DNA from: Prevotella sp.
Lineage (GTDB): Bacteria; Bacteroidota; Bacteroidia; Bacteroidales; Bacteroidaceae
NCBI GenBank assembly: GCA_017483185.1
Contig: JAFULM010000031.1
Location: forward strand, 1-57,776
Direction: 5' to 3'
Length of the DNA: 57,776 bases
Both the position numbers and the translations under genes were made by a program. Shown piece after piece: positions 4,938 through 16,644 of the stretch; the stretch's first letter is position 1, and each line of letters opens with the position of its first letter. The notes beneath the pieces are model-generated. The model ran no database searches. It was given only the letters and a program-made list of their open reading frames with translations, and was not told where the DNA came from.

Positions 4938-5036
4938 CACACAGTAGGGACAAATTCTTGTATCTATCCTCCTACAACGCATTGAAAATCAGTGATTGTT
5001 TGGCGGACAGATACAAGAATTTGTCCCTACTGTGTG
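4938..5036. repeat. Inverted-repeat element, GTAGGGAC-ended family (copy 1)
   Basis: A 99-bp element. The left arm starts CACACAGTAGGGACAAATTC and the right arm is its near-perfect complement (about 30 bp, one mismatch). The loop contains CGCATTGAAAATCAG and TTTGGCGGACA. The arms and several loop words recur at 56015-56169, which argues for a dispersed element rather than a one-off terminator. It sits upstream of nspC between that gene and a pseudogene. Confidence 0.75.
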
Positions 5037-5082
5037 CATTCTGCGACACTCTCATTCGTTTTTTTTGCAGATTGCGGTTTGT

Positions 5083-5856
5083 TTATTTGTCCGATTGTTC
5101 GTTCTCATTAAACTCCTCGATCCATTCCTTTACTTTTGCTTGCAGCAAAGTCTTATCCGGCAGATAAAGTTGGTAAGCCGAAGCATAGATGCTTCAGTCC
5201 AAGAAATTCCAGTGTGATAGGATTCTTTATGACGTCCGATGGCTTCTCGATTGTTTGTCCCTCCCTTGCCAACCTCATCACTTCGTCTTTGTTACGGCTC
5301 AATGCCAGTCTTTCATAAAGGCAACTCCCAACCTGACGGCTGAGCTGTCGCACACTCCATTGCTGTTCAGTACATTCTATTTCATAAAAACTATGAGCTT
5401 CAGGATTCTCAATACGCATGAGTATAAGATAATGAGACCATGAAAGGGTGAATGTGGGTGCTGAATTTAACAGACACTGTTTGTCATTTTCATCAAGGTC
5501 AGAAATCCGTGACAATGCTGCGGATTTGTTCTCTTTAATTTGACAGACTCTGTTTGTCAAATTGGAATATACTAAAAAAATTGCCGAACTTGTCGCAAGT
5601 TTGAATACGACCAGCCTTCGCCAAACCTGTCCGTCAGACATTTGAAAAGTTCTTTCAGCATCGCCTTTCCGTATTCGGCTCTCGTTTCTCCCTTTTGTTC
5701 ATACTCCACGATATACTGTCCGATATGAAACTTCGTATATACCTCAGCCACGTTTACTGCTGTCACAACACGTTTCCGGGCTTGTGTGATAAGATCTGAA
5801 ACTTTCAGGAACAGGTCGTTCATATTTTGATTGTCTGCTATAATACTTTTTCCCAT
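5083..5856 (-). pseudogene. Decayed YhcG/DUF1016-type nuclease gene
   Basis: Three pieces of one gene are visible. The N-terminal DUF1016 part starts at ATG 5856 (MNDLFLKVSDLITQARKRVV, ending NLRQVRQFF). The next segment continues in a shifted frame (VYSNLTNRVCQIKENKSAAL through ITLEFLGLKH). A short genuine C-terminus (LPDKTLLQAKVKEWIEEF) ends at the stop at 5083. The frame is lost in a run of seven A residues (plus strand 5574-5580); eight would restore it. The PDDEXK nuclease half is missing between the second and third pieces, so there is also an internal deletion. Family members are about 340-380 residues. It is not a close copy of the intact family member at 10329-11462. Confidence 0.75.
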
Positions 5857-5900
5857 AACTCAATCTTCATCAACATTAGCAAACATCTTTTCAAGTTAGG

Positions 5901-6035
5901 CTATATAATATATAAGGTATCAGAACGTTGTCGAGCGTATTGCTCATGGCTTCCTTTTATTATCCGCTTGATTATTATACGCTCGTAATGCGTAATACAT
6001 TATTTCGTCATTGACGCCAAATAATGCTGTTTATT
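5901..6035 (-). pseudogene. Vestige of a second nspC 5' end and promoter region
   Basis: From the minus-strand ATG at 5947 the frame reads MSNTLDNVLIPYILY, against MSNTFDNISTPIYII in the real nspC, and similarity runs upstream through the promoter region (ATTGACGCCAAATAATG versus TTGACACCAAATGTTTG). The coding match ends after about 16 codons. The promoter element has degenerated (no TAnnTTTG). This looks like the relic of a duplicated or recombined nspC junction at the edge of the restriction island. Confidence 0.65.
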
Positions 6036-6308
6036 TGACCGGCGGATGGAAATTAGTTTTTTGTTTAAGAACAAAACATCTTAGGCATTTTCCGATTCGT
6101 GACTGAACAAACTGTGCAGAAATAGGCCGCACTAATTCAGAACTCAAATATAATAACGAGTGCCTGATCCAAAAGAACGGTAGTTCCTTGTCATACAGAA
6201 TTACAGCGTAACAAACATGAGGAACTTATGGGGAAGACAGCCAAAGTACATGAAGTCGCCACACCAAGCACCCCATCCTGTATTGCACAAAGTTAGCTTT
6301 TCATTGGC
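6036..6308. other. Gene-free stretch at the island edge
   Basis: No convincing gene, RNA or repeat is visible here. A short plus-strand open stretch (about 6300-6440) has no start and no recognisable family, and overlaps the tail of the silent hsdS cassette. Confidence 0.4.
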
Positions 6309-6449
6309 TCACTGGGATTGCTGAACGACAGCAGTCCATCCTGCAATGTTGTCGACCCGAAAGCCAATCAGGAAATGGCAGAAATTCTCCGTAGGAAAAA
6401 AACGCAAACGTGGAATGAGACTATAATAGGACAAGATTAAATGGTGTAA

Positions 6450-6463
6450 TAAATCAGAATTTA
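6450..6463 (+). repeat. Inversion site A
   Basis: TAAATCAGAATTTA: 5-bp inverted arms TAAAT/ATTTA around the asymmetric core CAGA. It encodes the C-terminal VNSDL region of the silent half-cassette on the minus strand. About 60 bp beside it are identical to the flank of site C. Confidence 0.75.
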
Positions 6464-7109
6464 CCGATACTTGGCCATTCATCAGGAGAGGCAAAAGTTC
6501 GTTACGCTGTTTTGTGAGTTCTATGTTACAGAATATATTCTTAGTCCATTCTTCAAATAATGGCTTGACAATATTTTTAAATGTGTTTGCAATTTTCAAA
6601 TCTGGAATAATAATTGGCAATTCTTTGAGATATTTGAAATGGCGAGAATACCCTAGATTGGGAATTTGCAATGCACTTACTGCCAAATACAAATAGTATT
6701 GAGATACAGCCTCGTTTGAGGAATATAAAATTTGGGTACCATCAGCTCCTCGTGCAAAATCAAAGTCTAAGAATTTGACCTTTGTGGAGTGGTCGCCAAA
6801 CAAAACCGCAGGATGTCGTGTTAAAAGATGGTCAATTTCATTTGTAAAGCCAACAATATACGAATCACCCTGGTCTATAATTGGATATTTCCCACAAGAA
6901 AGATATTCCTTTGTTTCATACCGTTTTGTTGTAGGATACTTATCTAAAATTTCAGATATCGGCATTGTTGACCACCCTTGCGGGATTTCTCTTCCAAACC
7001 GTTCATTATATACCATTACCTCACCGCTTGATTTATAGGGCTTGCCTTCTTCATTTGGAAAGTCAAACTGCACAAACCAGTAGTCGTAGAGCTGCTTTGC
7101 CATCTTCTC

Positions 7110-7123
7110 TAAATTCTGATTTA
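7110..7123 (-). repeat. Inversion site B
   Basis: Same 14-mer as site A in opposite orientation (plus strand TAAATTCTGATTTA). It lies in the central NQNLE codons of the silent second-half cassette, just left of the recombinase gene. Confidence 0.75.
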
Positions 7124-7165
7124 GCTGTCCTTTATATTATATATAAGAACATAAACATCAGAATT

Positions 7166-8158
7166 ATGAAAGAAAACATCATTCAGGCAATAGTTGCGGA
7201 GATGCAGCGTGACTTGGACTGCCGACAAATGGCACGGCTTAAAGCTGTGCTTGCATCAGAGTTACATAATGTAGAAATAGTCGAAAAAGAAGATTGTTCC
7301 AAACAACAAGCGCAAGAGAATGAGCATCTTCTAAGCTCGTTTATTTCGGCAAAGAAGATAGAGGGGTGCTCAGAGAAGACATTGGCATATTACCGTAATA
7401 CTATTGAACGATTATTACTTACGCTTTCAGTAGCGATTTGTCATATAACAACATCAGATATTCGAGCCTATCTATCCGATTATCAAGAAGAGCACCAATC
7501 CAGTAAAGTGACTATAGACAATATGAGACGCATCTTTTCCAGTTTCTTTGCATGGCTGGAAGATGAAGATTATATTGCCAAAAGTCCTGTTAGGCGCATC
7601 CACAAGGTTAAGACGGATTCGCTTGTAAAAGAGGTTTTGTCCGATGAACAATTGGAGCAACTTCGAGATAGTTGTACCAACAAACGAGACCTTGCTCTTA
7701 TAGACATCCTTTCTTCCACAGGCATCCGTGTGGGTGAATTGGTTAAGTTGAATCGTGAAGATATTGACTTCCATGAACGCCAATGCGTGGTCTTTGGCAA
7801 GGGTAACAAAGAACGTGTAGTTTACTTCAATGCCCGAACTAAACTACATTTGCAGCAATACCTTGATGAACGCACAGATGACAATCCTGCTTTATTCGTT
7901 TCCCTCCATTTACCTAATACACGCTTAACAATTAGCGGTGTGGAAGTTAGAATCCGGGAATTGGGGAAATCCCTTTCTATGCCAAAGGTTCACCCTCATA
8001 AGTTCCGTCGCACTCTTGCAACAATGGCAATCGACAAAGGTATGCCCATTGAACAGGTGCAACGCCTGCTCGGTCATGTCCGCATAGACACAACTCTGCA
8101 CTATGCTATTGTGAACCAAAACAATGTAAAGTTAGCTCATAAGAAATACTTGGGATAA
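7166..8158 (+). CDS. Tyrosine recombinase (site-specific, hsdS-associated)
   Basis: 330 residues; start at ATG 7166 (MKENIIQAIVAEMQRD). An N-terminal SAM-like core-binding domain (about 52-140) is followed by the catalytic domain (155-325). Catalytic residues are visible: Arg188 in STGIRVGELVKL, Lys in FGKGNKER, His278-Arg281 in HPHKFRRTLA, His304 in LLGHVRIDTT and Tyr313. The family (XerD/integrase type) cuts and rejoins short inverted sites. It lies between the silent hsdS cassettes, 7 to 8 codons' length from site B, and is the obvious enzyme for inversion of the four 14-bp sites. Close relatives accompany phase-variable type I systems in Bacteroides. Confidence 0.92.
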   Translation: MKENIIQAIVAEMQRDLDCRQMARLKAVLASELHNVEIVEKEDCSKQQAQENEHLLSSFISAKKIEGCSEKTLAYYRNTIERLLLTLSVAICHITTSDIRAYLSDYQEEHQSSKVTIDNMRRIFSSFFAWLEDEDYIAKSPVRRIHKVKTDSLVKEVLSDEQLEQLRDSCTNKRDLALIDILSSTGIRVGELVKLNREDIDFHERQCVVFGKGNKERVVYFNARTKLHLQQYLDERTDDNPALFVSLHLPNTRLTISGVEVRIRELGKSLSMPKVHPHKFRRTLATMAIDKGMPIEQVQRLLGHVRIDTTLHYAIVNQNNVKLAHKKYLG

Positions 8159-8168
8159 GTAATTGTGC

Positions 8169-8197
8169 TTGATTCTGCTTGAAAATGTGTAACTTTG
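8169..8197 (+). promoter_or_regulatory. Plus-strand promoter of the hsdS N-terminal half-cassette
   Basis: TTG at 8169-8171, an 18-bp spacer, then TAACTTTG at 8190-8197, a very good Bacteroidales promoter, 13 bp before the first ATG of the cassette. The half-gene therefore appears to have its own promoter rather than being fully silent. Confidence 0.6.
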
Positions 8198-8210
8198 CAT
8201 CTAAAACAGG

Positions 8211-8819
8211 ATGCAAATGGATAAACAGAAACTGGGAGATATTGCCACTGTAGAAATTAGTGGGGTTGACAAGAAAACAAAAGACGGCGAACAAGAAATC
8301 CGGCTTTGCAACTTTGTTGATGTCTATTATAACTGGGCTATAACTACAGCTCAGCATGATGGCTTTATGTTTGCGACTGCCCGTCCCAATGAGATTTCCA
8401 AATTCCAATTAAAGAAAGGTCAAGTAGCTTTAACCAAGGATAGTGAGACCCGTGATGACATTGGTATTCCCACTTATATTGCCGATGATTTTAATGATGT
8501 TATCTTGGGGTACCATTGTGCCCTAATTACTCCAAACAAAGATATTTTAGACGGACGTTACCTAAACGCCCTTCTGCATACTGAATATGCAAAGAAATAT
8601 TTCGCTTGTAATGCTTCTGGAAGCGGGCAACGCTATGCGTTATCCGTTGAAGCACTCAATTCATTCCCAATTCCTATCATTCCATTAAGTGGACAAAAGA
8701 GAATTGGCGAAATATTCTCCGCAATAGACAAGAAAATTGAACTCAATCGTCGGATAAATCAGAATTTACCGATACTTGGCCATTCATCAGGAGAGGCAAA
8801 AGTTCGTTACGTTGCTTAG
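8211..8819 (+). pseudogene. hsdS 5' half-cassette (first target-recognition domain, TRD1b)
   Basis: From ATG 8211 (or 8217) the product carries a first recognition domain (MDKQKLGDIATVEI...). The central helix follows (GQKRIGEIFSAIDKKIELNR, then RINQNL). At that point the 14-bp site C is met, and the frame continues only into the antisense of the expressed hsdS end (PILGHSSGEAKVRYVA) before stopping at 8819. Its 3' 77 bp overlap the 3' end of hsdS on the other strand. Inversion between C and D would join it in frame to a complete second half; inversion between B and C would join it to the silent half at 7103. Confidence 0.8.
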
Positions 8820-10023
8820 TGAGAGCATTGATTTCATCAATGTTATTCTTTATACTATCAAATATGGCATCAACCTTATCATGGAATGCATGTAAAATTC
8901 GCTTTGGCGGATAAACCACTTTTATTGAAGCAAATTCATCTTTACTCATATTGGCAAATACATTGCCAGTTTTGGCTTTTGCATTCTCAAAATATAATTT
9001 TAAAGCAAAGTATACAAATTCTCTATTGTATTCATTCTCAAAAACTACAGAATTAATCTGTTGGTTTGTTTGCGATAATTTTGCGACGAATCCCATAACC
9101 CCTATTGTACCAATGCAAGAAACTAAAAGTGAACCAATCGGTAGGTATTTTTTTGTTTGACTTTCTGCACCTTTTGTGGAAAGGGTACGTTTCGAGTTGA
9201 ATATGAATAAATTGCCTCTTATATCATCTATGGTTATAAAAGGAATATCTCCACCAAAATTATTTTCATCGACACATGACGGAGTTTTGCCAGTTATGAT
9301 ATTATTTTCTACGTCGCCAATAGTCATGCCGCACCATCCTTTCGGAATTTCACACTTTAATTTATCATCCCAAACCATTTCGCCACCACTTGATTTATAC
9401 GGCTTGCCCTCTTCATTGGGAAAATCAAACTGCACAAACCAATAATCATAGAGCTGTTTCGCCATCGCCTCTAAATTCTGATTTATCGCTCGGTTAAGTT
9501 CTATTTTGCGGTCAATGGAACGCAATAACTTGCCGATACGTTTTTGCTCCGCCAATTCGGGAATCCACACTGTGCAATCCTTGATTTTATCAGGTGAAGT
9601 GTGACGAATTTTAGTCTGTTGGGCAGCAACACTTAGCTGTTGCTTAACGAGGGCAGAAGATATGAGATAAAATGCGAAATCCTTATCTAATAAGTCTTCA
9701 TTGCAGATAATCTTTGCTACATCTTGGCTTTGTATGTATTTGCCGCTTTCAGGAATAATGGCAGTCGAACCGAGCAAGCCTATTGCCTGTTCAGTCAAAG
9801 GGGTAATAATATCTCCCTCTTCCATTAAAAACTCAGGCTTGAAGTCTCCGACATAATAAAGATTGTCTTTGGACTTGTTCTCCTTAAAGCAGTTGTTCTG
9901 ATAGTCAAAGTTTCCACAAGTCAGACGAATATACTTGCCCTTAGTGGCATAAAACTCGCCACTGAGACTTGCTCCTCTTGTAACATCAAGGATTTCTCCC
10001 AATTTATATTTCGTCAAAATCAT
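8743..10023 (-). CDS. hsdS: Type I restriction-modification specificity subunit (currently complete copy)
   Basis: 426 residues with the standard plan: TRD1 (about 1-150, MILTKYKLGEILDVTRGA), a central conserved helical region (about 155-205, EQKRIGKLLRSIDRKIEL then AMAKQLYDYWF), TRD2 (about 210-385), and a C-terminal conserved region (TKQRNELLPLLMNGQ). HsdS determines the DNA target for both methylation and cleavage by the HsdM and HsdR subunits. The start overlaps the stop of the 99-residue upstream gene by 4 bp, so translation is coupled. The second half is flanked by inversion sites D (middle) and C (end), so this gene is one of several possible chimeras. Confidence 0.93.
   Translation of the reverse strand: MILTKYKLGEILDVTRGASLSGEFYATKGKYIRLTCGNFDYQNNCFKENKSKDNLYYVGDFKPEFLMEEGDIITPLTEQAIGLLGSTAIIPESGKYIQSQDVAKIICNEDLLDKDFAFYLISSALVKQQLSVAAQQTKIRHTSPDKIKDCTVWIPELAEQKRIGKLLRSIDRKIELNRAINQNLEAMAKQLYDYWFVQFDFPNEEGKPYKSSGGEMVWDDKLKCEIPKGWCGMTIGDVENNIITGKTPSCVDENNFGGDIPFITIDDIRGNLFIFNSKRTLSTKGAESQTKKYLPIGSLLVSCIGTIGVMGFVAKLSQTNQQINSVVFENEYNREFVYFALKLYFENAKAKTGNVFANMSKDEFASIKVVYPPKRILHAFHDKVDAIFDSIKNNIDEINALTKQRNELLPLLMNGQVSVNSDLSDD
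8755..8768 (+). repeat. Inversion site C
   Basis: TAAATCAGAATTTA. On the plus strand it codes for NQNL of the half-cassette; on the minus strand for the VNSDLS end of the expressed hsdS. It has the same orientation as site A, with about 60 bp of identical flank. Confidence 0.75.
9472..9485 (-). repeat. Inversion site D
   Basis: Minus-strand TAAATCAGAATTTA within the INQNLEAM codons between the two recognition domains of the expressed hsdS. Inverted relative to sites A and C. Confidence 0.75.
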
Positions 10024-10319
10024 AATAATCTATTTTGATTTTTTAGATATGATTTGGCTTCATGTTCAAAGCAATTCAAAAAGTATTCTTGTCCATTTTT
10101 TACATCTTCTTTATGCTCTGTAGTCCAATATGGATTTTCTTCAACTTCTTTTTTCATCTTAGCTTTTAGCCATTCGACACCATCGTGCAAGTCTTTTTCT
10201 GATATAGAGTAATGATTGCCTAACATTTCATTTATCGCAAATGTAGACAACTGAAAACCACCATTCGCATTCAATCCCATAGTGGTCATATATTCGGTTA
10301 TTTTATCATAATCTATCAT
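10020..10319 (-). CDS. Small conserved protein inside the type I RM operon
   Basis: 99 residues beginning MIDYDKITEYMTTMGLNANG; soluble, acidic, largely helical by composition, with no signal peptide and no family I recognise. It is 9 bp downstream of the YhcG-like gene and overlaps the hsdS start by 4 bp, so it is tightly embedded in the operon and likely expressed. A role in controlling the RM complex is only inference from location; a passenger gene is equally possible. Confidence 0.65.
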   Translation of the reverse strand: MIDYDKITEYMTTMGLNANGGFQLSTFAINEMLGNHYSISEKDLHDGVEWLKAKMKKEVEENPYWTTEHKEDVKNGQEYFLNCFEHEAKSYLKNQNRLL

Positions 10320-10328
10320 ATTTTTCTT

Positions 10329-11462
10329 TCAACTTTTATCTTTATTGCCCAATTTTGCTTCTATCTCTTCAATCGTTGGTATTGTTCCATCCACCTTTTC
10401 AGGATAAAGTTTTGACAATTCGTATTCAGAGATGCCCAATGGAAGATTACTTCCCTCCAATGCGTATTGCGCAAGTAATGAATCCTTTTGACGACAGATG
10501 AGCAAACCGATTGTAGGATTATCTCTTCCCTCTTTCTTGAGGATATGATTGCATGCAACCACATAACCACTTAACTGCCCCAAGTCTTGAAAATCAAACT
10601 CGCCAATCTTAACCTCAATTACCACATAGCATGATAAATTTATGTTGTAGAAAAGCAAGTCAATAAATTTTTCCTTTTGTCCTATCTGAAGTCGGTATTC
10701 TTTGCCAACGTATGCAAATCCCGTACCGAGTTCCAGCAGGAATTGGGATATGTTGGCGAGCAATGCATCTTTGAGAATTTGCTCATTGTAGGGTTTCGTT
10801 ATTCCTGTAAAGGCAAAATTGTAAGGGTCTTTCGTCAGTTCTTGTGCGAGGTCGCTTGCCTCGTCTGGCAATGTACGTGTGAAGTTTGTCAGGGTCTTGC
10901 CCTCTCGTTCATATAGTCCTGAGTCCATAAAGTTGAGAAGCACATCACGACTCCACCCCTCTTTCATTGTCTTTTTTACATAAAAGAAAGCCTTTTCTGG
11001 TTCAGTTCCATATCTGTCAATCAAATAACGATGGTGTCCCCAAGGTATTGAAAAAAGCATCTCTTTCAATTGTCCCACAGGCTGTGGGACAACTCCAGAA
11101 GAGTCTTCCGCAGATTGTGACGCATTTTCATCCTCTAATTGTCCCACAGCTTGTGGGACAACCTTTAGGTGTTGAGAATAAAGCAAATAGAATTTTTTTG
11201 CATAATAGATGTTGGTACGAGAAAGCCCCGTCGAATTCGGATTCTTGAGTTGTAAATCCACAGAGAGATTCTTAATGACACTCTGTCCCCAACGCTCTTC
11301 AACGTGCATTTCTTCTATGTCTCGACCAAGTTCCCAATAATACTTGAGCAATTCTCGGTTTACTCTTACGGCGGCTTTGATTTGACTTTGCCGATAACGC
11401 ACACTAAGATTTTCTACCCACTGGGTATAGTCCTTGTCTATGATGGTCAATCCTTTACTCAT
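10329..11462 (-). CDS. YhcG/DUF1016-family PDDEXK nuclease-like protein
   Basis: 377 residues. The N-terminal DUF1016 helical domain (about 10-180) includes YYWELGRDIEE and RTNIYYAKKFYLLYSQ. The C-terminal PD-(D/E)XK-like domain (about 225-360) includes LELGTGFAYVGKEYRLQIG, EKFIDLLFYNINLSCYVVIE and VKIGEFDFQDLGQL, whose D, E and K residues fit a nuclease core. Members are frequent in type I RM loci and are thought to be accessory nucleases. The gene overlaps hsdM by 8 bp. Two short in-frame palindromes duplicate the peptide VVPQ(A/P)VGQL around residues 100-132. Confidence 0.85.
   Translation of the reverse strand: MSKGLTIIDKDYTQWVENLSVRYRQSQIKAAVRVNRELLKYYWELGRDIEEMHVEERWGQSVIKNLSVDLQLKNPNSTGLSRTNIYYAKKFYLLYSQHLKVVPQAVGQLEDENASQSAEDSSGVVPQPVGQLKEMLFSIPWGHHRYLIDRYGTEPEKAFFYVKKTMKEGWSRDVLLNFMDSGLYEREGKTLTNFTRTLPDEASDLAQELTKDPYNFAFTGITKPYNEQILKDALLANISQFLLELGTGFAYVGKEYRLQIGQKEKFIDLLFYNINLSCYVVIEVKIGEFDFQDLGQLSGYVVACNHILKKEGRDNPTIGLLICRQKDSLLAQYALEGSNLPLGISEYELSKLYPEKVDGTIPTIEEIEAKLGNKDKS
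11070..11092. repeat. In-frame palindrome 1 in the YhcG-like gene
   Basis: Arms TTGTCCCACAG and CTGTGGGACAA around a single base; encodes VPQPVGQ on the minus strand. Confidence 0.7.
11139..11161. repeat. In-frame palindrome 2 in the YhcG-like gene
   Basis: Arms TTGTCCCACA and TGTGGGACAA with a 3-nt centre; encodes VPQAVGQ. It lies 69 bp from palindrome 1, in the same frame. Confidence 0.7.
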
Positions 11463-13116
11463 TGTCGCCTACATTTACGTTGAATTGCAAAGCATTCAAC
11501 TGTTTCATGATTTCTTCTTCCAACCGATGGCTTTCTGCAAATTGTTCGGAAAGGGTTTGCTTATAGTTAGCCATACGTTGGTTAAACTCCTCCTCGGTAA
11601 TATCTACATAATCAATCTTGATGTCGAAATATTGTCCGGCTGAGAGCGAATATCCTTTTTCCTTAATCTCATCGTAGGTAACGGCTACAGAAAAATCATC
11701 TACGGCCTCCTTGCGTTGGAATGTGCCGACAATCTTTTCTATCTCCTCATCGTTTAGACGTACTTTCTTCAATCCGTTGGCATCCTTGTATTCCTCACCC
11801 AATTTGCTGGCATCAATCAGAATTACCTTATCTGTGGTTGCCGACTTGTCGAAGAATAACACACTTACATTCGTACCCGTATTGGCAAATACATTGCTTG
11901 GCATGGAAACACAGCCATATACAATCTTGTCATCTACTATTTTATGAAGTATCTTGTTCTCAATACCACTTTTAGCTGTGATAAATCCGGTTGGGATAAC
12001 AATCGCACCCTTGCCTGTCTTTTTCAGCGAGTTGATAACATGCTGGATAAAGCAAGTATAGATTGCCATTGATTCTTTTTTCTTAGCAGGCACATTAGGC
12101 ACTCCTGCCCAGAAACGTGCTGGCATGGCAGCTATCTTTTCTCTTGTATCCGAGAAATCCATCTTGAAGGGTGGATTGCTGACAACAAAGTCGAATTGGC
12201 GCAGTTGCTGTCCATCATCGCTCTTATGATAAGGATTGACAAGAGTGTCGCCTTGAATGGCATTGTCAAGCGAAGAGACAAGCCCGTTGAGTAACAGATT
12301 AAGTTTCAACATCTTATTACTGCGTTGAGAAATATCCTGCGAGAAGATGGTACAACGGTCTTCACCAATCTGGTGACTAAGTGCCATAAGAAGAGTACCT
12401 GTTCCTGCTGAGGGGTCATAACATTCCATACTATGAAGGTCAGCATTGTCACCCACCAAAAGGCGGGCCATAATCGTGGCAATAGCATGAGGAGTATAGT
12501 ATTCCGCGTACTTACCACCTCCGGCTGTATTGTAGTCCTTTATCAGGTACTCAAATATACTGGAGAAGAAATCGTAGTTTTGGGCAAATGCCTCTTCAAA
12601 AGAGAAGTTCACAAGCTTGTCCACCAAAGCACGAGCGAATGGCGCACGTTGTGCCGTGTCAGTCACAAACGGTGTTAAAGCCTCAAACAAAGGAATCTTT
12701 GTGTTGGCAGTTGTTTGCGTAGAGAAAATATCCGCATTTTGCTCCGCAATGTCTGTCATCGTGGAATCAAAGATTGTATCGAAATCCCCTTTACTTTGCT
12801 GGTTCCAAAGGTTAGCTATCAGGTGATAAGGCTCAAGCATAGGAACATCGGGCGAAATGACACTTTGGATAAGCATACGCTCATCATCCGAAAGGTTCTC
12901 GTATGCCGTTTCCCATTTCACATCCCCTATCAGTTTCTTGGCAATATCGCTTTTGGCGTTTTTCAACTCATAGCCAAACTTGTCGTTCAAGAATTTATAG
13001 AGAAACACCTGAGTGATTATCTTATATTCGTTGCCATCGTTGCCCATACCGTAAGACTGGCATGTCGCTTTCAGTCCGTCAATAAGCTTTAATGTTTTTT
13101 CTTTTATATCTGACAT
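11455..13116 (-). CDS. hsdM: Type I restriction-modification methyltransferase subunit
   Basis: 553 residues. The N-terminal helical HsdM_N domain (about 5-140) is followed by the N6-adenine methyltransferase domain (about 180-490). The AdoMet motif is DPSAGTGTLL (234-243) and the catalytic motif IV is NPPF (314-317), preceded by GKYAEYYTP. It transfers a methyl group from AdoMet to adenine at the site chosen by HsdS. It lies 12 bp after hsdR and overlaps the YhcG-like gene by 8 bp. Length and motifs are intact. Confidence 0.97.
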   Translation of the reverse strand: MSDIKEKTLKLIDGLKATCQSYGMGNDGNEYKIITQVFLYKFLNDKFGYELKNAKSDIAKKLIGDVKWETAYENLSDDERMLIQSVISPDVPMLEPYHLIANLWNQQSKGDFDTIFDSTMTDIAEQNADIFSTQTTANTKIPLFEALTPFVTDTAQRAPFARALVDKLVNFSFEEAFAQNYDFFSSIFEYLIKDYNTAGGGKYAEYYTPHAIATIMARLLVGDNADLHSMECYDPSAGTGTLLMALSHQIGEDRCTIFSQDISQRSNKMLKLNLLLNGLVSSLDNAIQGDTLVNPYHKSDDGQQLRQFDFVVSNPPFKMDFSDTREKIAAMPARFWAGVPNVPAKKKESMAIYTCFIQHVINSLKKTGKGAIVIPTGFITAKSGIENKILHKIVDDKIVYGCVSMPSNVFANTGTNVSVLFFDKSATTDKVILIDASKLGEEYKDANGLKKVRLNDEEIEKIVGTFQRKEAVDDFSVAVTYDEIKEKGYSLSAGQYFDIKIDYVDITEEEFNQRMANYKQTLSEQFAESHRLEEEIMKQLNALQFNVNVGDNE

Positions 13117-13128
13117 AATTCTTTCTTT

Positions 13129-16100
13129 TTAAGCCATGCCGTATGTGGCATTGTATTGGTTGATATATTGTTGTGAAATTCGTTGCTGGATGAACTTATA
13201 ATCGTCCATTTCCGGTTTTATTTGTGGAAAATGATACAAGCACCCATTGATAAGAGCCATTACCGTGCGCCCGAAGTATGCATCTTTTTTCAAAATATCG
13301 TTACGGTCATATACTTTGGCATCCACATCCTCTTTAATAATATTGAGAATGGCTACAATCTCATCATCAAGGAATGAGAACATCGGCTTCTGCCCTTTCT
13401 TTTCTCTTTGTTTGTTGACCTCACGGATACGCTTGTGTACTCGGGCAAACTTCTCATCCCCTTTATATTTCTTTACCAAAGCATTATTTCGTTTTTGCAA
13501 GTCCTGCAAACGGGTTATGATTTCATCCAAAGCCTGAGTCTCTTCGTTGAACTTGGCTATGCTGTCAATCACAAAGCCATGCTCCCTGAAGCGTTCCATA
13601 AAAGCATCACGCAGCGACATAAATTCAGGATCGTCTTGGTCGAAGTTCTGGGTAAACGAAGCAATGGTGCGTTGCCATTTCTCTTTCAGCTCCGCTCCAC
13701 CCGAAATAAGGCGCATTTCTTCCTGTCCAATTTTAGAGAAGGTGAACTCTATATCCATCATTGCCTCATTGATTAGTGTCTTTGTTTCATCACCGATGCT
13801 AAAAGCTTCCTTTTGGTTGATGATGCCAATACGCCTTTGTACTTCGGAAAGCAACTGAGGCAACTTCGTGATTTCAAGTTTAGCGAATTGTTCCTTCATG
13901 TCCTCATCGCCGAAAGTACGCACGAGGTTTGCCATATTTTTCGCAGATTCCAAAGCCTGTTTTAGGTCAAGCAGAACAGCCTTGTCTTCTTCCGTGGAAA
14001 TCTCCGAAGAAAACTCTTCCGCATTATCGTAGGAATAATCGAAGAGGGTCTGGCGTACTTTTTTCATTTGTGCCACAATCTCGTCCTTGTCCTCAATCAC
14101 TTGAGTGAAAGTGTCTGTGGCATTGCCGTCACCAGTCTCATCCACATCGTTAAAACGATTCAACTCTTGCAGATAAGCCTCGTTTGTTTCTTTGAAGTTA
14201 CGTTTAATGTCGGCAAAGTCAATGACAAATCCGTAACGCATTCCGGGATATGGACGATTTACACGGGTAATGGCTTGAAGTAGATTATGGTCTTTCAGCT
14301 TACGACCGAAATACAAACGCTTCAAACGAGGTGCATCAAAACCAGTCAATAGCATGTTGAAGACAATAAGAATATCCACGATCATATTCTTTTTGAAATC
14401 CTTGACTGTCTGTTTTCTCGTTTCCTTGTCATCTGTGTCGTGGAGAATGATTCCGGCTTTCAGTGGTCTATACTTTGACTTGTAATCCACTTCGGGTTCA
14501 CCTACCACAAACGTCCCGTCAGGGAGCTTAATCTTGATAGGCTTTGGTTGGTATTTCTGCCACTCCTCTTGGAATACATCATAAAGCCGTCTTGCTTGTT
14601 CACTTGTTTCGCAGATGATCATACCGCCTAATGTATCGTCTCCTTGTATCTTACGAAACTCTTTCAAGTCCTTCATGATATAGTGAGCCAGCTCGTTCAC
14701 ATAGCTGGGGTGCTCTATGATTTCCGATTTGCGGATGTCTTTCTTTTGCACCAATGTGTCCAGCTTGTCGTACACGTCCGAAAGTCGCTCTTTGTAGGAT
14801 GTTTCTATATCCTCACGAATGATTTTCAGCGTATAACCGTCTGCAATGGACTTGTCATAATAATAGGTATGCAGGTAAGTGCCGAAGACCTTGCAACTTG
14901 CACGTTCCTCTTTTAACAACGGAGTACCCGTGAGGGCTATCTTTATTGCATCAGTGTCCGCATCAAAAAGGTTGGCAAGAAAACATCCACCAGGTTTATA
15001 GCCACGGTGTGCTTCATCGAGAATGAAGATACGTTGCAGATTTGTAGCATAATCATTGATGCGTACTTTTTCCTTATCCTCTGCAAAGCGTTGTATATTC
15101 ACGACTGTAATTTCAGCTTGACCGCTTGTTCCTTGTTGTGCTTGGTTGCTACGGAACTGCTCCATCAGTTCTGCTCTTGTGTTAGCAGTTGAAACCACCA
15201 GCCCACGGGCTTCAAATTCCTGTGTGGCTTGCTCCAACAAATCAAGGCGGTCAACGATAAAATAGAATTTGGCAACCTTATTCTGTTTGGAATAGAAATC
15301 ATTAAGAATATAAGTCAAGTAATAGGATAAAGCGGTCTTGCCACTACCCTGTGTATGCCAAACTACGCCCGATTTTACCCCCTCGGCAAGTTTCTTACGA
15401 ATAGACAACGATGCAAACAACTGCTGGTAACGCATGATATGCTTTTGGTCGGTAGATTCAATTTTGCCGTCCACTTCTCGCTCCATGCGGACGTAAGCGA
15501 TACCATATCTAATGATATACAATAAGCGTTCTGGCGAACACATGGAAGTCAATATACGGTTGGTGGGCGTATTGAAATCGAGGTTCGTTTGATATTCGGG
15601 ACTGGTATGGATTACCTGACAGTTGTAATCAGACAATATTTTCTTTTCCGCTACCCTGTCAATCTCCTTATATGGATAATCATGATGGTATGGAGCAATT
15701 TTCTGGCCGCTTGGGTTTTCCTCACGGAAGCAATTGAATGGAGAATAAGTGCGTGCGCCTGTACAATAGAAAGCCCCTTGTATGGGTACGATACCACCCA
15801 ACGCATCATATTCCATATTATTACTGAAAATCATCAGTTGGGTTATATTGATGAAGCGACGGAACTTCTTATTCGGGAAACGCTCTTTGTTCATCCGTGC
15901 GCTTTCTGCCAGCATACCACCATGATTATTTGGTTTCTTTACTTCTACAAAGCAAAGAGGCAGACCGTTTACAAACAGGGTAATGTCTGGTCGGAACTCG
16001 TCTTGACCGTTCTTGCAAGTAAACTCTGCTGTAAAATGGAAGGTATTGTTTCCGATATTGTCAAAGTCTATCAGTTTTACAGGAGATACGGCTTTAAGGC

Positions 16101-16359
16101 GGTTGTAAAAACCACGTCCAAGGTCATCATCATTCAATTCTTTGCGGATGTCTTTCTGTACTTGTATCCATTCACACTCATGACCAGGGTTCAGCTTTTT
16201 GAATTGTTGCTCAAAAATCGGCAAAAGGATATTTGTGTCACCGTCATAGACCGTGCCATTTTTATCTTCACTCAACTTGCCAAAATATGTATATCCTATT
16301 CGGGTGAGATGAACCATTGCAGGCATCTGTACCCGTGTCGCTTCCGAGAATTGTTTCAT
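13129..16359 (-). CDS. hsdR: Type I restriction endonuclease/translocase subunit
   Basis: 1076 residues. The N-terminal RecB-like nuclease has D125 (RPDITLFVNG) and E139-x-K141 (FVEVKK). The SF2 translocase has Walker A HTQGSGKT (335-342), DEAH at 448-451 (FILDEAHRGY) and motif III ALTGTPLL, followed by the second RecA lobe (TGFDAPRLKRLYFGR) and a long helical C-terminus for complex assembly. ATP-driven translocation leads to cleavage of unmodified DNA away from the recognition site. First gene of the minus-strand operon; full length with no frame breaks. Confidence 0.97.
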   Translation of the reverse strand: MKQFSEATRVQMPAMVHLTRIGYTYFGKLSEDKNGTVYDGDTNILLPIFEQQFKKLNPGHECEWIQVQKDIRKELNDDDLGRGFYNRLKAVSPVKLIDFDNIGNNTFHFTAEFTCKNGQDEFRPDITLFVNGLPLCFVEVKKPNNHGGMLAESARMNKERFPNKKFRRFINITQLMIFSNNMEYDALGGIVPIQGAFYCTGARTYSPFNCFREENPSGQKIAPYHHDYPYKEIDRVAEKKILSDYNCQVIHTSPEYQTNLDFNTPTNRILTSMCSPERLLYIIRYGIAYVRMEREVDGKIESTDQKHIMRYQQLFASLSIRKKLAEGVKSGVVWHTQGSGKTALSYYLTYILNDFYSKQNKVAKFYFIVDRLDLLEQATQEFEARGLVVSTANTRAELMEQFRSNQAQQGTSGQAEITVVNIQRFAEDKEKVRINDYATNLQRIFILDEAHRGYKPGGCFLANLFDADTDAIKIALTGTPLLKEERASCKVFGTYLHTYYYDKSIADGYTLKIIREDIETSYKERLSDVYDKLDTLVQKKDIRKSEIIEHPSYVNELAHYIMKDLKEFRKIQGDDTLGGMIICETSEQARRLYDVFQEEWQKYQPKPIKIKLPDGTFVVGEPEVDYKSKYRPLKAGIILHDTDDKETRKQTVKDFKKNMIVDILIVFNMLLTGFDAPRLKRLYFGRKLKDHNLLQAITRVNRPYPGMRYGFVIDFADIKRNFKETNEAYLQELNRFNDVDETGDGNATDTFTQVIEDKDEIVAQMKKVRQTLFDYSYDNAEEFSSEISTEEDKAVLLDLKQALESAKNMANLVRTFGDEDMKEQFAKLEITKLPQLLSEVQRRIGIINQKEAFSIGDETKTLINEAMMDIEFTFSKIGQEEMRLISGGAELKEKWQRTIASFTQNFDQDDPEFMSLRDAFMERFREHGFVIDSIAKFNEETQALDEIITRLQDLQKRNNALVKKYKGDEKFARVHKRIREVNKQREKKGQKPMFSFLDDEIVAILNIIKEDVDAKVYDRNDILKKDAYFGRTVMALINGCLYHFPQIKPEMDDYKFIQQRISQQYINQYNATYGMA

Positions 16360-16644
16360 TTTACCTGTCTTTTGTCAGTTTTCAAATCCTTTAAGTCCAC
16401 CTACAATATCTCTGTAATCTATTGCAAGGTTTCTAAATTAGGCAGAATCGATTACAATCATAGGCTTTTACATACTAAAATCTTATCGAATTTCTTTGCC
16501 AACCATGTTTAAGAAATGACTTTTTCAGATAAGACAACCTTTATTTCATTCTTTGATACAATTTAATAGTGCAAATATAGTGAATTATATTCGATAATCA
16601 GAATTATTATTGCACTTTTGCGCAACCGACAATAAAGTATAAAC
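16360..16644. promoter_or_regulatory. hsdR leader with promoter; boundary of the RM island
   Basis: AT-rich and gene-free. A minus-strand TATATTTG (-7 element) lies at 16572-16579, giving a leader of about 210 nt before hsdR. The 9-mer ATCAGAATT, the core of the four inversion sites, occurs just upstream at 16597-16605. Base composition shifts abruptly to GC-rich at the btuC end (16645). Confidence 0.5.

Follow-up and report, generated by a model that had tools for sequence, protein, structure and literature searches.

The DNA analyzed here is a 57,776-nt stretch of a Prevotella genome (contig JAFULM010000031.1 of assembly GCA_017483185.1), referred to below as the window. Judged from its sequence, we hold with high confidence that it carries a four-site hsdS shufflon within a type I restriction-modification (RM) operon, of the kind described as SsuCC20p in Streptococcus suis. 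This is a switch of a known kind: a resident enzyme probably flips DNA pieces and so changes the sequence that a restriction-methylation system recognises. The kind of system is already known, and the window is a further case with its own site core and its own RM genes. What is new is a core-matching rule for the recombination sites across 42 loci, together with near-fixed synonymous bases in the site arms across 53. The comparison of dozens of relatives suggests that a simple four-letter match determines which pieces can be joined.

A preliminary description of the window had reported four copies of a 14-mer at the joints of HsdS, and all four were found where it had placed them, on the strands that it gave. 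The motif TAAATCAGAATTTA occurs without mismatch at sites 1 to 4 (Table 1), each at an HsdS joint. With up to two mismatches, five matches occur in the window against 0.52 expected, and none of 100 shuffles gave five. Across the whole assembly (2.47 Mb in 61 contigs, 74.7% complete) there are two forward and two reverse copies, which are the four of the locus, and the reversed control has none. The site layout is TAAAT-CAGA-ATTTA, with one core (CAGA) and an orientation that alternates across the four sites; sites 1 and 3, and likewise sites 2 and 4, are direct repeats. This division into 5-bp arms and a 4-bp core had been proposed from the window alone and is borne out by the comparison of loci below, by which, and not by cleavage mapping, the core was delimited. 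Only 14 bases are common to all four sites (sites 1 and 4 share 15, sites 3 and 4 share 16), and the DNA contacted by the recombinase probably exceeds these 14 bp.

Read along the coding strand, the sequence at the centre joint is xTA AAT CAG AAT TTA (INQNL), and at the C-terminal joint it is xTA AAT TCT GAT TTA (VNSDL). These are the same 14 bp, inverted, and thus each second target recognition domain (TRD2) is flanked by inverted sites. Site 3 serves both as the centre of the 5' half on the + strand and as the C-terminal end of hsdS on the - strand, so that two first domains, TRD1a and TRD1b, converge on one cassette. The genes agree with the earlier reading of one complete hsdS, one 5' half and one 3' half with a tyrosine recombinase between: Pfam Methylase_S matches cover the complete hsdS (in two stretches), the 3' half and the 5' half. 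The recombinase blocks TGIRVGEL, HPHKFRR and LLGHVRIDTTLHY align with XerA, and we take them to contain the catalytic residues.

Our inference is that the sites are the substrate of this recombinase, that each of the two 5' halves is expressed and that methylation in the cells changes. In the mechanism that we propose, the enzyme encoded at 7166-8158 would invert the DNA between opposite TAAAT-CAGA-ATTTA sites. TRD1a (after hsdM) and TRD1b (after the recombinase) would face each other across one invertible 3' cassette. A flip of this cassette would pass TRD2 from one 5' half to the other, so that one complete HsdS would be made at a time. The stored TRD2b would come into use when the whole block and single segments are inverted, giving four specificities. 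With such a locus, methylation and restriction specificity are likely to change heritably yet reversibly, with consequences expected for phage defence and gene uptake and perhaps for gene regulation.

Inversions were simulated on the window's own letters. The 16 resulting states include all four combinations of TRD1a or TRD1b with TRD2a or TRD2b as open reading frames (ORFs), with HsdS lengths of 426 aa (TRD1a-TRD2a), 428 aa (TRD1b-TRD2a), 409 aa (TRD1b-TRD2b) and 407 aa (TRD1a-TRD2b). As long as the recombinase segment is unflipped, exactly one complete HsdS is present in each of the eight simulated states (8/8), and the partner 5' half becomes a half of 200-203 aa. The claim that up to four specificity subunits can be built by inversion is therefore upheld by the simulation, and relatives show other arrangements. 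The accompanying claim, that inversion between opposite sites yields the combinations, holds for all four but not as a single step in every case. One simulated inversion suffices to bring TRD2a to TRD1b, whereas a complete TRD1a-TRD2b takes two, when it reads on into the recombinase, or three for a normal stop.

Alternative arrangements occur naturally in relatives. Locus L125, in a genome of the same genus (G029), resembles the window at the DNA level in the 99-aa gene and YhcG (87%), hsdM (85%), the recombinase (83%), TRD1b (83%) and TRD1a (82%). Its complete HsdS (420 aa) starts at TRD1b, and its TRD1a is a 195-aa half ending in INQNLPILDRSYNYRS. L125 shows the alternative state, with the other 5' half engaged. 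Its cassette matches the one in slot A (the position of cassette A in the window) of L025 (94.9% over 1,493 nt) and, in part, that in slot A of L020 (93.2% over 867 nt). L020 retains both TRD1a (92% aa identity) and TRD1b (88%), yet its C cassette is joined to TRD1b. L078 and L079 share one cassette (96.7% over 735 nt), which occupies slot C in one of them and, in inverted form, slot A in the other; L033 and L037 do so as well (91.3% over 746 nt), and flanks and recombinase are colinear in both pairs. Where TRD2 cassettes of relatives lie in other slots or orientations, the break points are at the sites. As a separate observation, the invertible TRD2 cassette of L125 (5397-6167) and of slot A of L025 includes an extra gene (DUF2971, 256 aa), which would flip along.

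The relatives were drawn from at least 585 candidate stretches in species genomes, of which at least 552 code for a relative of the recombinase; 80 loci were kept. The 14-mer was searched for in related genomes, as the preliminary description had put forward: exact copies occur in 14 of the 80 loci, including Bacteroides, Phocaeicola, Parabacteroides, Leyella and Prevotella records, and in 8 of 150 same-genus genomes drawn from a larger group. Three of these eight genomes have at least four copies, and the five with a single copy barely exceed the reversed control (two single copies in the same 150 genomes). L023 is a copy of L024 (identity over 8,521 bases). At an E-value of 1e-90, the recombinase has a match in 36 of 399 family genomes. 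Among 101 loci with a recombinase match, one or more site-like matches are present in 90, and in 40 the recombinase is flanked on either side by two sites of the same core. In 38 of these 40 the sites alternate in orientation, as in the window, the exceptions being L022 and L107. We tallied the states of the 38 four-site loci, picked for alternating orientation and taken without the copies L100, L102 and L023. Slot A is + in 13, - in 15 and uncalled in 10, and slot C is + in 15, - in 19 and uncalled in 4. Where called, these near-even orientations are what would be expected of a freely flipping cassette.

The architecture might also have been inherited as a locked relic, in which the recombinase or its expression was lost in this strain and no switching takes place. 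A broken DUF1016 gene adjoins the locus at 5153-5856, which indicates some decay in the area. The recombinase, however, is of full length with its conserved blocks present, and homologues from several other records share 91-94% identity with it; the four sites are perfect and the four combined reading frames are still open, which makes a relic very improbable.

To assess whether the sites are constrained as DNA, we compared them across loci. Centre sites mostly read TAAAT-NNNN-ATTTA with the cores CAGA, GATA, CATA, CGCA, CGGA, CATC and others; a minority have one changed base in the arms. The third bases of the arm codons in 53 loci are nearly fixed (A in 53, T in 48, T in 53 and A in 53), and the arm codons are TTA for leucine in 53 of 53 and ATA for isoleucine in 35 of 35. 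The third base of the core codon is mixed (T in 29 of 53), and so are the isoleucine and leucine codons flanking the site. Fixed or nearly fixed synonymous bases in the arms next to mixed neighbours show a constraint on the DNA and not on the protein alone.

For the cores, we required the arms TAAAT and ATTTA to match, which left 63 of 81 centre hits usable, and then took one pair per locus (42 loci, mostly Bacteroidota, with three Firmicutes: L061, L068 and L072). Equal cores at the centre and the C-terminal site were found in 62 of the 63 arm-matched hits, the exception being L088. Per locus, the 4-bp core is identical at the centre and the inverted C-terminal site in 41 of 42 (40 of 41 without the copy L023). 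Shuffling the partners gave a mean of 9.9 core matches and a maximum of 22 in 10,000 permutations, a comparison that overstates the number of independent cases because the loci are related by descent and include one copy. Seven different cores are present in this set, and the centre and C-terminal joints are not homologous. The 18 centre hits that were dropped had arm letters unmatched at one or both joints; among them, L067 has an equal core, whereas L084, L093 and L098 have differing cores, which counts against a universal core match.

These results also bear on the idea that the 14-mers are a mere trace of conserved protein sequence and gene duplication. In the window, each of the two site pairs is indeed embedded in a longer duplication (140 nt at 81% for the centre sites 2 and 4, 79 nt at 91% for sites 1 and 3), and the peptide INxNL is conserved. 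Yet the 14 bp are shared in inverted form by non-homologous joints that encode different peptides, the synonymous bases are fixed or nearly so, and the cores vary between loci but match within 41 of 42. Such a trace is extremely improbable, and on the synonymous-base and core-matching tests we reject the view that protein conservation alone produced the repeats.

A contrast is offered by seven loci that resemble the pneumococcal tvr locus (L077, L088, L091, L092, L093, L098 and L103). Their recombinases show 62-64% identity, and each locus has two core types: GATA or CATA at INDNL/INHNL joints, and TCTC or TCCC (the reverse complements of GAGA and GGGA) outside these joints. GATA at the centre is combined with GAGA or GGGA elsewhere, and CATA with GAGA, and each core type is present in one orientation only. 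In L084, L088, L093 and L098, one TCTC/TCCC-type site lies no more than about 15 nt behind the end of the TRD2 match. The same arms with different cores and a different orientation suggest that the core may pick the partners. In one-core loci, centre and tail sites would pair and invert the DNA between them; in the tvr-like loci, where the cores differ, the centre would join only a centre and the tail only a tail.

Alternatively, the cassettes of the window might mainly be excised and reinserted between sites 1 and 3 and between sites 2 and 4, as in tvr. These pairs are indeed direct repeats, and the related recombinases just described lie beside loci with only direct sites for each core type. 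Those loci, however, have two core types with one orientation each, whereas the window has a single core that alternates, as do 38 of the 40 loci with two sites on each side, and excision of the middle part would lose the recombinase. A mainly excising locus is very unlikely, and inversion at four sites remains our reading.

Taken across loci, the matches suggest that the core may decide which sites recombine. Tentatively, and as a possibility that falls somewhat short of probable, one widespread recombinase family reads the constant TAAAT/ATTTA arms, and the 4-bp core is a free address that chooses the partners, with its orientation setting inversion or excision. If this were true, several shufflons of one cell could be kept apart, and altering one or two bases of a core could turn an inverting locus into a translocating one. 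No statement of the core-matching rule was found in the papers and passages covered, and a text search of the literature with the site letters gave nothing relevant.

Several points weigh against these readings. The cores cluster on the recombinase tree (26 changes against a shuffled mean of 65.9), which means that cores and recombinases did not descend independently of each other. On this tree, CAGA requires one change (13 rows, with a branch support of only 19) and GATA twelve (23 rows). When the recombinase segment is flipped, the simulated states have zero, one or two complete HsdS, which is outside the one-at-a-time logic, and TRD1a-TRD2, where formed, stays in frame with the recombinase and continues into it (767 or 748 aa). 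For SsuCC20p of S. suis, no assemblies were found that had two complete hsdS, only truncated hsdS or an inverted recombinase (PMC10790761). Because sites 1 and 3 and sites 2 and 4 are in direct orientation, deletions would be possible too, among them ones that remove the recombinase. Part of the cassette exchange among relatives could stem from homologous recombination that followed gene transfer. The assembly, moreover, is incomplete (74.7%, in 61 contigs).

The published systems are compared here as described in parts of the cited papers. SsuCC20p is the closest proven system: its 14-bp inverted repeats, TAAATCATCATTTA, have the arms TAAAT and ATTTA as in the window, and it has four TRDs, two of them flanked by sites, and a resident recombinase (PMC10790761). 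The sites, described earlier as very compact for such a system, are for that reason not unusual. A complete hsdS is possible both after hsdM and after the recombinase in SsuCC20p, as it is by simulation in the window and by sequence in L125. The window recombinase has 65% aa identity to that of L068 (S. suis 10581). The two systems differ in the core (CATC against CAGA), in HsdM (27% identity between the window and L068) and in context: the window has an hsdR-hsdM-YhcG-hsdS operon in Bacteroidota, whereas SsuCC20p was called restricted to streptococci (PMC10790761). In S. suis, mutants of the recombinase retained one allele only, transcription was seen from both hsdS positions, including the one after the recombinase, and two N6-methyladenine profiles were reported in one culture (PMC10790761).

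The SpnIII (cod) locus of Streptococcus pneumoniae, with CreX (PsrA), is similar in that a tyrosine recombinase inverts hsdS halves at a short repeat (PMC7096588, PMC4948785, PMC6620402). Its 15-bp repeat is CTCTT followed by ATTATGGGAA (PMC6620402), in place of the TAAATCAGAATTTA sites of the window. SpnIII has further repeats of 85 and 298/333 bp that recombine partly without the recombinase (PMC7096588, PMC4948785, PMC6620402); no such long inverted repeats were found in the window between 5000 and 11500. The SpnIV (tvr) locus of the same species shares recombinase-driven shuffling of hsdS halves and has two repeat types with a common core (PMC6265443). It works with direct repeats at midpoint and tail end, by excision and reintegration (PMC6265443), which the seven tvr-like loci resemble and the window does not. 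Shufflon BB of Bacteroides fragilis is likewise a type I RM shufflon of Bacteroidota with an adjacent tyrosine integrase, but it has a 38-bp repeat, four sets and eight combinations (PMC3090145). In Prevotella intermedia, which probably belongs to the same broad group as the window, hsdS inversion and several type I motifs in one culture were described (PMC5608340); the word recombinase is absent from the text of that paper, and the passages covered give no sites. In a defined gut community, inverton group 145 comprises 20 invertons called from reads (9 in Bacteroidota, 10 in Firmicutes_A), with repeats conserved across phyla and an enrichment for hsdS overlap and nearby tyrosine recombinases (PMC11892184). 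Our guess is that its repeat is TAAAT-N4-ATTTA. A survey that demanded exact inverted repeats of at least 20 bp (PMC7394358) would miss the window locus, judged by the repeats in 5000-11500. The grammar of constant arms and a matched core can itself be searched for and picks up switches missed by such a survey; through it, the SsuCC20p kind is seen to reach beyond streptococci, and the sites able to recombine can be predicted.

The shufflon ends a - strand operon of the order hsdR-hsdM-YhcG/DUF1016-99-aa gene-hsdS, which runs from 16359 to 8743 and encodes a type I RM system with a two-domain hsdS (Table 1). In 1-kb windows, G+C is 37-44% from about 5000 to 16500, 55-58% in the right flank and 42-53% in the left, and the low G+C relative to the flanks fits horizontal gain. 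In plasmid and phage collections, the locus had partial matches only.

Table 1. Sites and genes of the shufflon and its operon (positions in the window)
Feature	Position	Strand	Remarks
Site 1	6450..6463	+	C-terminal joint of TRD2b (inverted sense), core CAGA
Cassette A: TRD2b, hsdS 3' half (ORF 6309-7103)	6464..7109	-	Without attached TRD1 in the present arrangement
Site 2	7110..7123	-	Centre joint of TRD2b; the recombinase ATG follows after 42 bp
Tyrosine recombinase, XerA-like, 330 aa	7166..8158	+	PF00589, PF13495; NF040815 above its cut-off
TRD1b: hsdS 5' half, 202 aa in the present arrangement	8211..8819	+	Methylase_S
Complete hsdS, TRD1a-TRD2a, 426 aa	8743..10023	-	Methylase_S, two stretches
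Site 3	8755..8768	+	Double role: centre joint for TRD1b (+), C-terminal joint for TRD2a (-)
Cassette C: TRD2a	8769..9471	-	Common to the two converging 5' halves
Site 4	9472..9485	-	Centre joint of complete hsdS
99-aa protein	10020..10319	-	No Pfam or PADLOC family at E 0.001
YhcG/DUF1016 PDDEXK nuclease, 377 aa	10329..11462	-	
hsdM, 553 aa	11455..13116	-	N6_Mtase; TIGR00497 below its curated cut-off
hsdR, 1076 aa	13129..16359	-	

The recombinase frame of the window (6965-8158) is open upstream through site 2, and in L024 (5239-6993) and L043 (5275-6993) a single ORF joins TRD2 and the recombinase (584 and 572 aa). Leaders shorter than 76 nt number 37. Their length is a multiple of three in 17, of which 15 are open in the site frame, compared with 5.0 expected from shuffles; in the other two length classes, 8 of 11 (2.5 expected) and 1 of 9 (2.4 expected) are open. 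We rejected a recombinase-HsdS fusion as a designed feature, as there is no clear enrichment in the choice of frame and the loci share descent. The open frame may be due to chance, to relatedness or to a fused protein that depends on orientation.

Some relatives depart from the layout of the window. L022 (1407-8487) is an enlarged shufflon whose six sites form two groups of three, separated by about 6.1 kb, and in L044 the recombinase is placed beyond cassette A and thus not within the shuffled block. No paired TAAAT-N4-ATTTA sites were found beside the recombinase homologues L111 and L113-L118 in the stretches covered, some of them incomplete, and none within the 18 kb covered around L161, the second recombinase of genome G230. 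These recombinases show about 60-64% identity, all except L161 are on contigs from viral collections, and they may have another job.

Two further observations concern the DUF1016 genes. The second such gene, left of the shufflon at 5153-5856 (-), consists of two overlapping pieces in different frames and is present besides the intact copy at 10329-11462. Within the latter, a 23-nt palindrome, TTGTCCCACA-N3-TGTGGGACAA, occurs twice (11070-11092 and 11139-11161); the assembly holds no further copy at up to one mismatch, and the VPQxVGQL peptide that it encodes is doubled in L125 too.

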